Shown: in pieces, positions 31,998-63,174 of the stretch | Position numbering within the stretch: position 1 is the stretch's first letter | Layout of the letters: each line of letters opens with the position of its first letter | Assembly (NCBI GenBank): GCA_947501555.1 | Contig: CANMWG010000002.1 | Span: 258,224-322,223, forward strand | Length of the DNA: 64,000 bases | Source: an uncultured Paracoccaceae bacterium | GTDB taxonomy: Bacteria; Pseudomonadota; Alphaproteobacteria; Rhodobacterales; Rhodobacteraceae | Direction: 5' to 3' | The notes under the pieces: generated by a model | Seen by the model: only the letters and a program-made list of their open reading frames with translations | What the model was told of the DNA's origin: nothing | The model's database searches: none | Position numbers and translations under genes: made by a program

Positions 31998-32312
31998 TTA
32001 AACAGAAATCTGAACGTCAACACCGGCCGCCAGGTCGAGCTTCATCAGCGCGTCAACGGTTTGTGGTGTTGGGTCAACGATGTCGAGCAGACGCTTGTGC
32101 GTGCGGATCTCGAACTGATCGCGGGATTTCTTGTCAACGTGGGGGCCACGCAGAACAGTGAATTTTTCGATCTTGTTTGGAAGTGGGATCGGTCCACGAA
32201 CAGAAGCGCCTGTGCGCTTGGCTGTGCTGACGATTTCCTGTGTGCTTGCATCAAGCACCCGGTAATCAAACGCCTTAAGGCGGATACGGATGTTTTGGCT
32301 CTGAGCGGCCAT
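31998..32312 (-). CDS. rpsJ: 30S ribosomal protein S10
   Basis: [41 protein letters not shown]. Confidence 0.98.
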
Positions 32313-32387
32313 GAGCATCACCCTTTCGATAGGGCCTTAACGGATTGGACGATGCCAGCTCATCCGGCACCCTCATCGCGTCTTTTG

Positions 32388-32506: not shown

Positions 32507-32932
32507 TCAATTTTCGATACTGCACATCCCATAATATGTAGTGACCCACGCTTCTTGCGTGTCACCATCTACACCTTGAACGCTCATCGTCGCACTTTTG
32601 GGACCAAAGGTAAGCATCGAAAAAATCACTGGATCACGGTTAGAATCCGTATCAACACCGAGAAGTGTTCCACTCGAACCCTTGCGAAACGCAAACCGTG
32701 TATGGCCCTCGATAGATCCTGAATCGAGATCAACTAAGCCGTAGCGTTCTCCATCATCGTGGCCCACAAAGCTCAGATTATAGACAAGATCGGCACAGCC
32801 ACCGCTTTCTACGCATTCTTTTGTAAAAACGCATTGTATCGTCTCGGACAAAACGGGTGCGGCCGACAAGAAGAACATTGCGGCTGTTGTGGCCCAATAG
32901 CTTTTGCTTACAAGCATACGCTTTCGTTGCAT
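32507..32932 (-). CDS. Hypothetical secreted protein
   Basis: Signal peptide ...SYWATTAAMFFLSAAPVLSE. Confidence 0.55.
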   Translation of the reverse strand: MQRKRMLVSKSYWATTAAMFFLSAAPVLSETIQCVFTKECVESGGCADLVYNLSFVGHDDGERYGLVDLDSGSIEGHTRFAFRKGSSGTLLGVDTDSNRDPVIFSMLTFGPKSATMSVQGVDGDTQEAWVTTYYGMCSIEN

Positions 32933-33193: not shown

Positions 33194-34429
33194 CTACCGC
33201 TGGACCGCTGACAATAGCTGCAAATCGGGATAGCAGGTTTCGGTGGTGCCGGTTTGCGCCTGCCATTGCCCAATTGAACGGCGTGTCTTATGGCCAATGA
33301 GCCCATCCGCGCCACCGACATCGAAACCCTGCGCTTCAAGCATAATCTGCAGATCAACAATATCCGTGCGCAAAAAATCATCCACAGGCTGCCATGGGCC
33401 GGTAAAATCTCCGACCCCATATTTGATACGATCCCCCACATGCCCGACAAACAGGGCGTAGGCGTCGCTTTCGTTGTAATCCTTCAAGGTATAGAAATTG
33501 GACGTCACGATAAGCGCGGGCCCGTAGCGACCAGCGGGCATCAACAGGTAGCCATCCTGCGTCAGCTCGGGGCTTGGAAACGGGCGACCTGACACGCGGG
33601 TGATCCCCATGTCCCGCCACTGCTGCACGGGGCGCCCGTTGTCTATGCCTTCAAGCGCGCAGGAAACGGTCGCCGGAACAGTCACTTCAAACCCCCAATC
33701 CGTGTCCCGGTTCCATCCATGATTTGCCAAGTAGGCCCCGATTGACGCCAGCGTGTCGGCCTCTGACCTCCAAATATCCGCCTCGCCATCGCCATCGCCA
33801 TCGACGGCATGTGCCAAATAGCTTGTCGGCATGAATTGCGGCTGTCCAAGCGCACCGGCCCAACTGCTTTTCATTTGATTGCGGGACACATACCCCGACT
33901 GAAGAATTTTCAGGGCTGCAATAAGCTCTTCCGTGAAATACGCCGCACGGGCGCTTAAGAAGCCTCGGGTACCAAGAATTTCGAAGACATCATGTGGGAT
34001 TGCAGCTTGCCCAAAACTGCTTTCACGCCCCCAAATGGACAGGATGATATGACCTGGAACCCCAGTTCTCTGTTCAATCTGGGCGAGGGTCGTTGCGTGC
34101 CTGTTCAGCATGCGACGCCCAATTGTGGTGGAATGCCCAACGATCCCAGAAGCGAAGTAACGGGCCGGCGGGCGAAACTCGGCTTGGGTTTGCCGTTGTG
34201 GGCGCGCCTGTCCAGGTATGATTAGCCCCGGCAAATCCCAGTTCAACGATACGCCAGCAAAGGCCTGATCAAATGTTCTGCGTGCCACACCCTCTGCTTG
34301 CGCACGTGGCCATATGGTTTGTTCCAACCAGAGCGCATACTGTCTTTCGGTTGCCGCACGGTCCTGTGACAGCACAAAACTCGGCATGACCACCATCAAA
34401 AGCGTCAGAAGTGCGAAGGCAAGTTTCAT
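33194..34429 (-). CDS. Lytic murein transglycosylase (MltB-like) with C-terminal peptidoglycan-binding domain
   Basis: LSIWGRESSFGQ...SSWAGALGQPQFMPTSYL...DGDGDGEADIWRSEADTLASIGAYLANHGW; IMLEAQGFDVGGADGLIGHKTRRSIGQWQ. Confidence 0.9.
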   Translation of the reverse strand: MKLAFALLTLLMVVMPSFVLSQDRAATERQYALWLEQTIWPRAQAEGVARRTFDQAFAGVSLNWDLPGLIIPGQARPQRQTQAEFRPPARYFASGIVGHSTTIGRRMLNRHATTLAQIEQRTGVPGHIILSIWGRESSFGQAAIPHDVFEILGTRGFLSARAAYFTEELIAALKILQSGYVSRNQMKSSWAGALGQPQFMPTSYLAHAVDGDGDGEADIWRSEADTLASIGAYLANHGWNRDTDWGFEVTVPATVSCALEGIDNGRPVQQWRDMGITRVSGRPFPSPELTQDGYLLMPAGRYGPALIVTSNFYTLKDYNESDAYALFVGHVGDRIKYGVGDFTGPWQPVDDFLRTDIVDLQIMLEAQGFDVGGADGLIGHKTRRSIGQWQAQTGTTETCYPDLQLLSAVQR

Positions 34430-34672
34430 CAAGAAATCCAGTTTGTCAGGAGCGAGTTGCCCCACCAAACACGACCTTGGGTCGAATGACAAATAAACCC
34501 TGCCCCAGTTAATTCACGTCGGCGTCCTGATCAGGAAATGACGTGTTGATCGCGTCACGTGCATATACGCTCCAACAGATTTTTTGCTGTCCGCTAGGAT
34601 TTCAAGGTCGAATTTCTGACAACCTCTTTTTGCCGTGGGAGTGGTTTTTCAGAACTGTAGGGTAAGACCGAT

Positions 34673-34700
34673 AGGGCCGCTTCGTTTCCGAAGCGGCCCT
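34673..34700 (-). terminator. Terminator downstream of the tuf 3' relic
   Basis: agggccgcttcgtttccgaagcggccct, followed by the ctattcataacg-ctgagtgggttct tract also found after both intact tuf genes. Confidence 0.7.
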
Positions 34701-34742
34701 TTGCTATTCATAACGTCTGAGTGGGTTCTTGTTAGTCGTCGA

Positions 34743-34810
34743 TTACTTGACGATTTTCGAAAGAACCCCGACATCACCATGTCGGTGCCCGCTCCAAGCC
34801 GGTCAAACGT
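34743..34810 (-). pseudogene. Relic of a third tuf gene 3' end
   Basis: Minus frames read LGAGTDMVMSG (EF-Tu [11 protein letters not shown]), then after an apparent deletion VGVLSKIVK* (EF-Tu AGVVSKIVE*). Confidence 0.7.
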
Positions 34811-34831
34811 CTTTCATTCAGACAAAAAATA

Positions 34832-35563
34832 ATGCATCCCGGGCGGGCCTTTCATTGCCGAGAGCCCCACCCCATGTCACCCCTGCGACGTTCACTTGAA
34901 AACTCAAAAGTCCTTGCCAGACTGTTGGCAACGCCTATGGCATGGTATCTGCGGCTCTGCATGACCACCACGCGGTGGCAGGTCGAAGGAAAAGACGCGC
35001 TCCTCGCGGATATGGCAAAGGGGCCTGTCCTTTGTGTCCTTTGGCACGAACGTCTGATGATGATTGCACCGCATTGGCCCAAAAAGGCTGGCACGTTGTC
35101 CTGCCTGCACAACACAGCACCCATCGGGCGGGTTGCAGGCGCGTTGCAGGCCTGCTTTGGCCTTGATCCGTTTGAGATGTCGGCCAACCGCAGCAATCTC
35201 GCGACCTCCCGCGCGGTAATGCGCCGGAGCAAGGATGGGATCAGCATCGGGATCACCGCTGACGGCCCGATCGGGCCGAGTTACACGGTTATGGACGCGC
35301 CGCTGGAATGGGCCCGGACGCTGCAACAACCTGTCTATGCCTACGCATTCGCAACAAGCCGCCATAGGCGGTTGCGTACATGGGACACGATGATGATACC
35401 CCGCTTGTTTGGAAAAGGCGCCGTTGTATTTGCGCCGGTCGATCTAGATCTACCGCGCAAAGCGTCTGAAGCACAAATCGCACGCGCGCGTGACGCCCTA
35501 CAAGCCGGGTTGCATCAAGCGACAGCACGGGCCGATTATCTTGCTGGTTTAACGGACGACTAA
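34832..35563 (+). CDS. DUF374-type lysophospholipid acyltransferase-like protein
   Basis: VLCVLWHERLMMIAPHW...ISIGITADGPIGPSYTVMDAPLEWA. Confidence 0.8.
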   Translation: MHPGRAFHCREPHPMSPLRRSLENSKVLARLLATPMAWYLRLCMTTTRWQVEGKDALLADMAKGPVLCVLWHERLMMIAPHWPKKAGTLSCLHNTAPIGRVAGALQACFGLDPFEMSANRSNLATSRAVMRRSKDGISIGITADGPIGPSYTVMDAPLEWARTLQQPVYAYAFATSRHRRLRTWDTMMIPRLFGKGAVVFAPVDLDLPRKASEAQIARARDALQAGLHQATARADYLAGLTDD

Positions 35564-35584: not shown

Positions 35585-35610
35585 GCAGGATGGGTCGAGA
35601 CCCATCTTAC
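35585..35610. repeat. Variant palindrome gcaggatgggtcgagacccatcttac
   Basis: Diverged relative of the 26-bp palindrome. Confidence 0.75.
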
Positions 35611-35635
35611 GGGGCTTGGGTTCGGTTGGCATGCA

Positions 35636-35664
35636 AAAAGGCCGCTCCATGTGGAGCGGCCTTT
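35636..35664 (-). terminator. Terminator after tuf copy 1
   Basis: aaaaggccgctccatgtggagcggccttt. Confidence 0.85.
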
Positions 35665-35742
35665 GTTATTCATAACGCCTGAGTGGGTTCTCGGTGATTG
35701 CTGCGCATTCACCTGCCACCCACCAGTGCCGTTCAAGATTGT

Positions 35743-36918
35743 TTATTCAACAATCTTTGATACGACACCCGCACCAACAGTCCGGCCACCCTCGCGGATC
35801 GCGAAGCGCAGGCCGTCTTCCATCGCAATCGGCGCGATCAGCTCAACGTTGAACTTCAGGTTGTCGCCAGGCATCACCATTTCAGTGCCCGCTGGCAGCT
35901 CAACAGTACCGGTCACGTCTGTGGTCCGGAAGTAGAACTGTGGACGGTAGTTCGCGAAGAACGGTGTGTGACGACCGCCCTCTTCCTTGGTCAGGATATA
36001 GGCCTCAGCCTCAAACTTCGTGTGCGGCTTCACAGAACCCGGCTTACACAGGATCTGACCACGCTCAACGCCTTCACGGTCAACACCGCGCAGCAACGCA
36101 CCGATGTTGTCGCCAGCTTCACCTGAATCCAGCAGCTTGCGGAACATTTCAACGCCTGTGCAGGTCGTTTTCGATGTATCCTTGATGCCCACGATCTCAA
36201 TCTCGTCACCGACATTGATTACGCCACGCTCAACACGGCCCGTCACAACAGTACCACGACCAGAGATCGAGAACACATCCTCGATTGGCATCAGGAACGG
36301 CAGGTCAACCGCACGGGCAGGTGTTGGGATGTACTCATCCACAGCCGCCATCAGCTTTTCAATGGATTCCTTACCGATGTTGTCGTCACGCTCTTCCATC
36401 GCGGCCAGGGCCGAACCAGGGATCACAGGGATATCATCGCCAGGATATTCGTAAGAGCTTAACAACTCGCGAATTTCCATTTCAACCAGTTCGAGCAGCT
36501 CGTCATCGTCGACCTGATCAACTTTGTTCATGTAGACAACCATATATGGGATGCCAACCTGACGACCCAACAAGATGTGCTCACGCGTTTGCGGCATTGG
36601 GCCGTCTGCGGCGTTCACAACCAGGATCGCGCCGTCCATTTGCGCCGCACCGGTGATCATGTTTTTGACGTAGTCAGCGTGGCCGGGGCAGTCAACGTGC
36701 GCATAGTGACGCGATTCAGTCTCATATTCCACGTGTGCCGTTGAGATCGTGATCCCACGCGCCTTCTCTTCCGGCGCGCCGTCAATCTGGTCATACGCCT
36801 GGAAGTCACCAAAATACTTCGTGATCGCCGCCGTCAGCGTCGTCTTCCCGTGGTCAACGTGGCCAATCGTACCAATGTTAACGTGCGGCTTGTTACGTTC
36901 AAACTTTGCCTTTGCCAT
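35743..36918 (-). CDS. tuf: Elongation factor Tu (copy 1)
   Basis: [35 protein letters not shown]...; protein identical to 61999-63174. Confidence 0.99.
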
Positions 36919-60288: not shown

Positions 60289-60364
60289 TGGCAGGGGCTG
60301 AGGGACTCGAACCCACGACCCTCGGTTTTGGAGACCGATGCTCTACCAACTGAGCTAAACCCCT
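60289..60364 (-). tRNA. trnW: tRNA-Trp (anticodon CCA), CCA end encoded
   Basis: aggggtttagctcagttggtagagcatcggtctccaaaaccgagggtcgtgggttcgaaccctcagcccctgcca folds as a full cloverleaf. Confidence 0.97.
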
Positions 60365-60799
60365 ATGACCGCCTGCCGGACTAGTCCGAAACGAAAGCCG
60401 GATCAAGAGGGAAGGTGCACCAGACGTATGTTCGCGGGCAGAAATGTCGAAAGAGAAGGGCCAGCCAAGGACCAAAGGCCTTGGCCGCCTATGTCATCGC
60501 GTCGGTGGATCGAAAAATCCGCGTTTCTTGCGGGACTTCTAGCAACGCTGCACCGGTGCTATTTGACGTTTTTGCGATCGGACCACCAAATTGCAAGTCG
60601 AAGGCCTGGACGATCTGAAAGCCGCATTGACGGCTTGGTTGATCGGAAGATGCGGCAAGAGGCGTGGAAGCGCAGAGCGAGGATTTACGCAGCAAATTAG
60701 ACGCACCCCTCGGCCGCGCGGATGCGTTGGCTGCAGATGGCTGACACACTGCGTTTCCATATGGCTTGCAGACTGTATGCATCGTATTTTCGGTAGTGC

Positions 60800-61920: not shown

Positions 61921-61998
61921 GTTATTCATAACGCTGTTGTGGGTTCTCGGTGATTGCTGCGCATTCACCTGCCACCCACCAGTGCCGTTCAAGATTGT

Positions 61999-63174
61999 TT
62001 ATTCAACAATCTTTGATACGACACCCGCACCAACAGTCCGGCCACCCTCGCGGATCGCGAAGCGCAGGCCGTCTTCCATCGCAATCGGCGCGATCAGCTC
62101 AACGTTGAACTTCAGGTTGTCGCCAGGCATCACCATTTCAGTGCCCGCTGGCAGCTCAACAGTACCGGTCACGTCTGTGGTCCGGAAGTAGAACTGTGGA
62201 CGGTAGTTCGCGAAGAACGGTGTGTGACGACCGCCCTCTTCCTTGGTCAGGATATAGGCCTCAGCCTCAAACTTCGTGTGCGGCTTCACAGAACCCGGCT
62301 TACACAGGATCTGACCACGCTCAACGCCTTCACGGTCAACACCGCGCAGCAACGCACCGATGTTGTCGCCAGCTTCACCTGAATCCAGCAGCTTGCGGAA
62401 CATTTCAACGCCTGTGCAGGTCGTTTTCGATGTATCCTTGATGCCCACGATCTCAATCTCGTCACCGACATTGATTACGCCACGCTCAACACGGCCCGTC
62501 ACAACAGTACCACGACCAGAGATCGAGAACACATCCTCGATTGGCATCAGGAACGGCAGGTCAACCGCACGGGCAGGTGTTGGGATGTACTCATCCACAG
62601 CCGCCATCAGCTTTTCAATGGATTCCTTACCGATGTTGTCGTCACGCTCTTCCATCGCGGCCAGGGCCGAACCAGGGATCACAGGGATATCATCGCCAGG
62701 ATATTCGTAAGAGCTTAACAACTCGCGAATTTCCATTTCAACCAGTTCGAGCAGCTCGTCATCGTCGACCTGATCAACTTTGTTCATGTAGACAACCATA
62801 TATGGGATGCCAACCTGACGACCCAACAAGATGTGCTCACGCGTTTGCGGCATTGGGCCGTCTGCGGCGTTCACAACCAGGATCGCGCCGTCCATTTGCG
62901 CCGCACCGGTGATCATGTTTTTGACGTAGTCAGCGTGGCCGGGGCAGTCAACGTGCGCATAGTGACGCGATTCAGTCTCATATTCCACGTGTGCCGTTGA
63001 GATCGTGATCCCACGCGCCTTCTCTTCCGGCGCGCCGTCAATCTGGTCATACGCCTGGAAGTCACCAAAATACTTCGTGATCGCCGCCGTCAGCGTCGTC
63101 TTCCCGTGGTCAACGTGGCCAATCGTACCAATGTTAACGTGCGGCTTGTTACGTTCAAACTTTGCCTTTGCCAT
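61999..63174 (-). CDS. tuf: Elongation factor Tu (copy 2)
   Basis: Protein identical to 35743-36918; antisense ORF translations are identical too. Confidence 0.99.

Follow-up and report, generated by a model that had tools for sequence, protein, structure and literature searches.

How did a tuf 3' end come to lie between an acyltransferase gene and rpsJ, a short distance from an intact tuf gene? We addressed this question in a window of 64,000 nucleotides (the whole stretch of DNA that was analyzed) from an uncultured Paracoccaceae bacterium. Read along the minus strand, the order is tuf1, its 3' untranslated region (UTR) and terminator, a lysophospholipid acyltransferase-like gene (LPLAT) on the opposite strand, the tuf remnant, a lytic transglycosylase gene, and rpsJ (Table 1). 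The original prediction for this locus was that a decayed third tuf 3' end with its own terminator lay at 34673-34810 on the minus strand, that it was the original tuf end facing rpsJ, and that tuf1 and the acyltransferase gene had been inserted or moved upstream of it.

Table 1. Features of the window that bear on the origin of the tuf remnant
Feature	Position	Strand	Evidence
rpsJ, faced by the remnant across two genes	31998..32321	-	
Small ORF between rpsJ and the transglycosylase gene	32507-32932		
Lytic transglycosylase gene in the tuf1-rpsJ gap	33194-34492	-	
Remnant of tuf 3' UTR (right half of the UTR element) with hairpin	34673..34742	-	UTR profile, blastn, fold
Decayed tuf 3' coding remnant with stop codon (34745-34743)	34743..34812	-	nhmmer, dinucleotide shuffles
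LPLAT leader, its left edge a probable illegitimate joint	34813..34873	+	weak alignment
Intact LPLAT (DUF374), cargo, best read as a xenolog	34874..35563	+	Pfam PF04028, trees, AU tests
3' UTR and terminator of intact tuf1	35636..35742	-	nearly identical to those of tuf2 up to the terminator
Intact tuf1, judged native	35743..36918	-	identical to tuf2; closest to G008, G048
tRNA-Trp, landmark of the ancestral LPLAT site	60289..60364	-	ARAGORN, Rfam
Decayed native LPLAT pseudogene with tRNA-Trp spacer, ancestral site	60365..60732	+	tblastn, DNA alignment, DNA tree
Intact tuf2	61999..63174	-	

A decayed tuf 3' end

The position and strand predicted for the decayed end were right, and a tuf-derived pseudogene fragment is confirmed at 34812-34673 (-), made up of coding pieces, a stop codon, half of the 3' UTR, and a hairpin. 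Its homology to tuf begins slightly upstream of where it had been noticed, at AGACGTTTGACCGG, which corresponds to AGACGTGACCGG in tuf. On the minus strand the remnant runs AGACGTTTGACCGG..GAGCGGGCACCGACATGGTGATG, a deletion, TCGAAAATCGTCAAGTAA, AGAACCCACTCAGACGTTATGAATAGCAAAG, and then the GC hairpin. Codons ~334 to 347 and ~385 to 391 are represented, with deletions between them, and with a frame change and only about 20 codons remaining the fragment is untranslatable as EF-Tu. What had been called a third tuf is a 3' fragment of the gene; a whole third copy is not implied.

When the coding part (34742-34810, -) was aligned to the tuf 3' end, the score was 49.5, which none of 1,000 dinucleotide shuffles exceeded (mean, 25; maximum, 46.5 against the tuf tail and 43 against the whole of tuf), a result that bears out the predicted homology. 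An nhmmer profile of the tuf 3' end, made from relatives' sequences only (27 rows), placed 34809-34767 third among its matches in the window, behind the two intact tuf genes (E = 0.0018; next match, E = 1.1), and a relatives-only profile of the tuf 3' UTR likewise ranked 34733-34668 third after the two intact UTRs (E = 4.5e-8). The matches of these two independent profiles are adjacent, on the same strand, and in tuf order, and nothing comparable was found in reversed-window controls, where the best E values were 0.24 and 0.047. A blastn comparison of the remnant with its own genome matched the tuf1 UTR (E = 5.7e-8).

The predicted terminator was present in part. The hairpin at 34673-34700 has a perfect 12-bp stem (-26.4 kcal/mol; z, -6.9), but the T-run behind it on the minus strand is decayed and no good run is left (CCCTATCGG), so that full terminator strength on this strand is doubtful. 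The stop region of the remnant, AAAATCGTCAAGTAATCGACGA, is closer to AAAATCGTCGAATAATCGACGA of G010, a related species from the same species group as the window genome, than to the present ends of tuf1 and tuf2. Presumably the remnant escaped conversion through its shortness and so kept a different stop region.

A structured element, GTGGGTGGCAG..GAGAACCCAC, occurs in the 3' UTRs of the intact tuf genes at 35683-35723 (-) and 61939-61979 (-). It varies among relatives with its inverted-repeat form preserved, and it reached the cut-off of no family in an Rfam search. A palindrome, CCGTAAGATGGGTCTCGACCCATC, follows the tuf1 terminator at 35589-35612, and near copies of it lie downstream of tuf in G006, G044, G049, G050, and G051.

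Place and ancestry of the LPLAT gene

One LPLAT match each was found in 54 of the 57 same-genus genomes searched. In the relatives' loci that were fetched, the gene is next to tRNA-Trp and, if the contig includes tuf2, lies between the two and convergent with tuf2, and it is absent from their tuf1-rpsJ loci; only the window genome, among the same-genus genomes searched, has LPLAT within a few kilobases of rpsJ on one contig. Because the relatives keep LPLAT at tRNA-Trp, away from rpsJ, the gene was relocated in the window lineage. Its start is at 34874 by homology and at 34832 in the ORF tool, and its leader shows a weak alignment with the tRNA-Trp/LPLAT spacer of G041, G024, G007, and G029 that extends roughly as far as the remnant.

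At the ancestral site, the stretch next to tRNA-Trp could be aligned with the tRNA-Trp/LPLAT spacer and the 5' part of LPLAT of G006 (76% over 495 aligned bases, gapped), with a score of 130 versus 26 ± 5 for shuffles; the alignment is most reliable over its first ~265 bases. The stretch contains stops, frameshifts, and an internal deletion, and tblastn gave E values down to 1e-13 (with G056). Judged by these alignments, it is the native LPLAT gene in the form of a pseudogene.

The intact gene formed a clade with those of G041, G024, G029, G007, and G047, here called the donor-like clade (6 versus 15 rows; support, 100/100), and its grouping with the species neighbor G008, which would be the vertical placement, was rejected (AU test; p = 1e-26). 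Conversely, the core markers nusG, rplK, rplA, rpsJ, rpsG, and fusA placed the window genome with G008 (support, 94/96), and its placement with the donor-like clade was rejected (p = 1e-4). An AU test of LPLAT with 16 versus 5 rows (p = 0.24) asks only whether the window gene is sister to the five donor-like genes and is for that reason uninformative. In a DNA tree, the pseudogene grouped with the native clade and the intact gene belonged to the other, the split again having a support of 100/100. Since its clade differs from that of both the core markers and the native pseudogene, the intact LPLAT gene is best read, on this phylogenetic evidence, as a xenolog, that is, as foreign DNA between the anchor, tuf1, and the joint. 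Its branch is long and arises near the base of that clade, so that the exact donor is unsampled; the donor is known only as a clade, from one gene. Members of the donor-like clade have an acetyltransferase gene between tuf2 and LPLAT that is missing in the window.

The tuf genes and their flanks

tuf1 and tuf2 do not differ in coding sequence, and for most of that length their nearest matches are those of G008 or G048. The two UTRs match up to the terminator and diverge beyond it, as expected from the concerted evolution of tuf genes (PMC6053082). fusA-tuf1-rpsJ is the usual order in the fetched relatives, and tuf1 shares its nearest neighbors, G008 and G048, with other core markers; by gene order and affinity, fusA-tuf1 is native and stayed in place. 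The relatives' loci and the tuf 3' and UTR profiles agree with the prediction in taking the remnant for a tuf1 3' end that was displaced and faces rpsJ, and the acyltransferase gene did arrive on its upstream side, but the claim that tuf1 itself was inserted did not hold: only a tuf 3' end or UTR and LPLAT need have come in. Horizontal replacement of the whole of tuf1 was ruled out, tuf being native-looking along its length. The present tuf UTRs have their best matches in G004, G012, G005, and G025, not in the donor-like clade. UTR type was also considered as a marker of the donor and found uninformative, the remnant and the present tuf genes sharing a type that is also seen in G004, G005, and G025.

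The content of the tuf1-rpsJ gap varies, with the lytic transglycosylase gene in the window and a chemoreceptor-like gene in G008 and G029. In G045, a related transglycosylase lies between tuf2 and LPLAT (L063:2788-3732), and cargo may for this reason swap between tuf flanks. Downstream of tuf2, G008 carries a piece of the 5' part of rpsJ, decayed (35 aa, 74%) and accompanied by its leader (L058:3735-3950), a mirror-image scar or exchange of tuf flanks. In G048 (contig C1, 1319500-1361500; L049, L076, and L069), the stretch bounded by the two tuf genes is permuted, the order being X-tuf-rpsJ..rpsC and then rpoB-rpoC..fusA-tuf-LPLAT-tRNA-Trp-nusG, as if it had been excised by tuf x tuf recombination and reinserted behind part of the S10 operon.

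Equivalent scars in other genomes

A search for tuf C-terminal pieces followed by inspection of the loci yielded two clean parallels free of assembly gaps, which share with the window an intact tuf gene, a terminator, cargo on the reverse strand pointing toward tuf, and a tuf 3' remnant that has a UTR of its own. In G026, of the same genus, the scar is at tuf2, where opposite-strand DUF2147 and GGDEF genes precede a remnant of tuf codons 358 to 391 plus UTR that is 85% identical over 180 bp. In G300, of another genus, it is before rpsJ, where an opposite-strand gene of 163 aa is followed by tuf codons 365 to 391 and by a UTR that differs from those of both living tuf genes. At the cut-offs used, no second occurrence of the G026 GGDEF cargo turned up in the genus or in 397 family genomes, and the cargo gene of G300 has only near-full-length relatives of 37 to 43% and shorter partial matches. 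The number of scars is a lower bound, as remnants as decayed as the one in the window are invisible to a protein scan.

Two additional candidates, G261 and G369, were rejected: they have scaffold gaps (runs of N) with the tuf 3'-end repeat on both sides. These gaps lie just behind tuf (L100:1876-1975 in G261; L098:1885-1982 in G369) and are a trap for remnant searches in draft genomes. G189 (L095) was rejected as a capture and instead carries a tandem duplication of the tuf 3' end, rpsJ, and the rplC 5' end, which is ~590 bp long, lies near a contig end, and may be real or an assembly artifact.

Origin of the scar

The explanation that we favor, with a probability of roughly 0.6, is that a tuf-adjacent LPLAT gene entered through recombination anchored in tuf1 and that the far end of the incoming DNA was joined illegitimately near tuf codon 334. 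The data show the remnant, the moved and xenologous LPLAT gene, the decayed native copy, and the two parallel scars; from these we infer the order of events, the use of homology on one side only, and the transfer of donor tuf DNA along with the cargo. The incoming DNA would have carried a tuf 3' end together with LPLAT, the convergent gene usually found behind tuf2, and would have come from a lineage near the G041/G024/G029/G007/G047 clade; given the usual place of the cargo behind tuf2, this DNA was plausibly a tuf2-LPLAT stretch. On one side, homologous recombination inside tuf would have left tuf1 whole, although its tail may be donor derived. The other side would have been joined without homology, from just upstream of the LPLAT promoter region into the resident tuf1 at about codon 334. 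The resident tuf1 3' end, UTR, and terminator would then have been pushed toward rpsJ, where the coding part would have decayed and the hairpin stayed intact, and the native LPLAT gene beside tRNA-Trp, having become dispensable, would have decayed as well. The window, G026, and G300 all fit one type of event, with a homologous joint inside tuf, cargo facing tuf, and a second joint in the last seventh of the gene. The proposed homologous joint in the window is unmappable because tuf1 and tuf2 are identical and homogenized; the probable illegitimate joint is near 34812, between the LPLAT leader and tuf codon ~334, in sequence too decayed to show microhomology. These points weigh against the explanation, as do the present UTR, which does not point to the donor-like clade, and the missing acetyltransferase gene.

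The main rival to this reading, which we regard as possible but clearly less probable, is a Campbell-type single crossover or a segmental duplication that brought a tuf 3' end and LPLAT into tuf1, the second tuf later shrinking. The same end state would result, and exchange between tuf genes does occur in the genus, since the permuted rpo/str segment of G048 has tuf at its joints. The remnants of G026 and G300 also start alike (codons 358 and 365), as would be left by a circle with a short piece of tuf. Duplication with asymmetric loss corresponds to the SNAP model (PMC8046335), and redundancy followed by decay of that kind is found here, the tuf 3' end having decayed at one site and the native LPLAT gene at the other. 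A purely internal duplication, however, cannot supply a xenologous LPLAT gene, and between LPLAT and the remnant there are no remains of tRNA-Trp, secE, or nusG. A common origin of the two LPLAT copies of the SNAP type fails, as the pseudogene and the intact gene are in different clades, and the idea that LPLAT came solely from an internal tuf1 x tuf2 duplication is rejected on the same grounds.

A small site-specific element that used the tuf 3' end as its attachment site and restored the gene on entry, as islands at tRNA genes do, would also keep tuf intact, with the displaced 3' end beyond the insert. It is disfavored, to the point of being very improbable, because no recombinase gene is present: we found no integrase or recombinase gene in the window insert, where LPLAT is the only gene between tuf1 and the remnant, or in the inserts of G026 and G300. 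Moreover, the three cargoes are unrelated, and the remnants start at different points (codons ~334, 358, and 365). Chance resemblance, or a shared terminator without any tuf coding sequence, gains something from the shortness and weak score (13 bits) of the coding part taken by itself, but it is hardly credible against two independent profiles that match adjacent stretches in tuf order above the reversed controls and against the clean parallels in G026 and G300.

Implications and relation to known systems

On the favored reading, the scar shows how a gene can enter a highly conserved operon cluster without a mobile element and without harm to an essential gene, tuf staying intact because the incoming DNA carries its own tuf end. 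Recurrence in the window genome, G026, and G300 makes tuf-anchored gene capture countable and testable, and such fragments may preserve a former state of tuf, since wiped out in the living copies by concerted evolution. A bolder idea, which we consider improbable, is that tuf is a standing integrase-free entry point for foreign genes in Rhodobacteraceae, each capture leaving a unit of tuf, cargo, and tuf 3' end whose flanking tuf repeats would let RecA excise a small circle able to enter other tuf genes; if so, ordinary genes would travel between genomes on the homology of a core gene alone.

A search of the literature turned up no precedent for tuf remnants or for a third tuf copy. Two published cases, the concerted evolution of tuf genes (PMC6053082) and an integration next to EF-Tu in Shewanella (PMC3478194), resemble the present case in that identical tuf genes are homologous through their terminators and tuf is a place of homologous integration; no description of tuf 3' remnants beyond a cargo gene was found in either paper. 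Rearrangements of the secE-rpoBC-str-S10 cluster and the SNAP model (PMC8046335, PMC7055797) are alike in that redundant copies and asymmetric loss change gene order in the same cluster, but, unlike those cases, the window has one xenologous copy and a tuf 3' scar at the joint. In Vibrio, type VI secretion (T6SS) loci contain effector 3' ends that have been displaced and immunity genes that have been orphaned, and the same paper discusses orphan Rhs 3' regions (PMC5361080). There, as proposed for the window, an incoming module is anchored in a conserved upstream part and the old 3' part is pushed downstream; the Vibrio anchor gene, however, diversifies under selection, whereas tuf is unchanged and its cargo unrelated to it.

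The type of event is already known as homology-facilitated illegitimate recombination, described in Streptococcus pneumoniae, Acinetobacter baylyi, and Pseudomonas stutzeri (PMC3240628 and references therein), although we found no description of its recurrence at tuf. There, one end is joined by homology and the other without it, as we propose for the window, and in both, foreign DNA lies beside a conserved anchor. That process has been described as a laboratory transformation event, whereas the window would hold a natural fossil with its anchor inside an essential core gene, and the scar is what such recombination would leave (PMC3240628).
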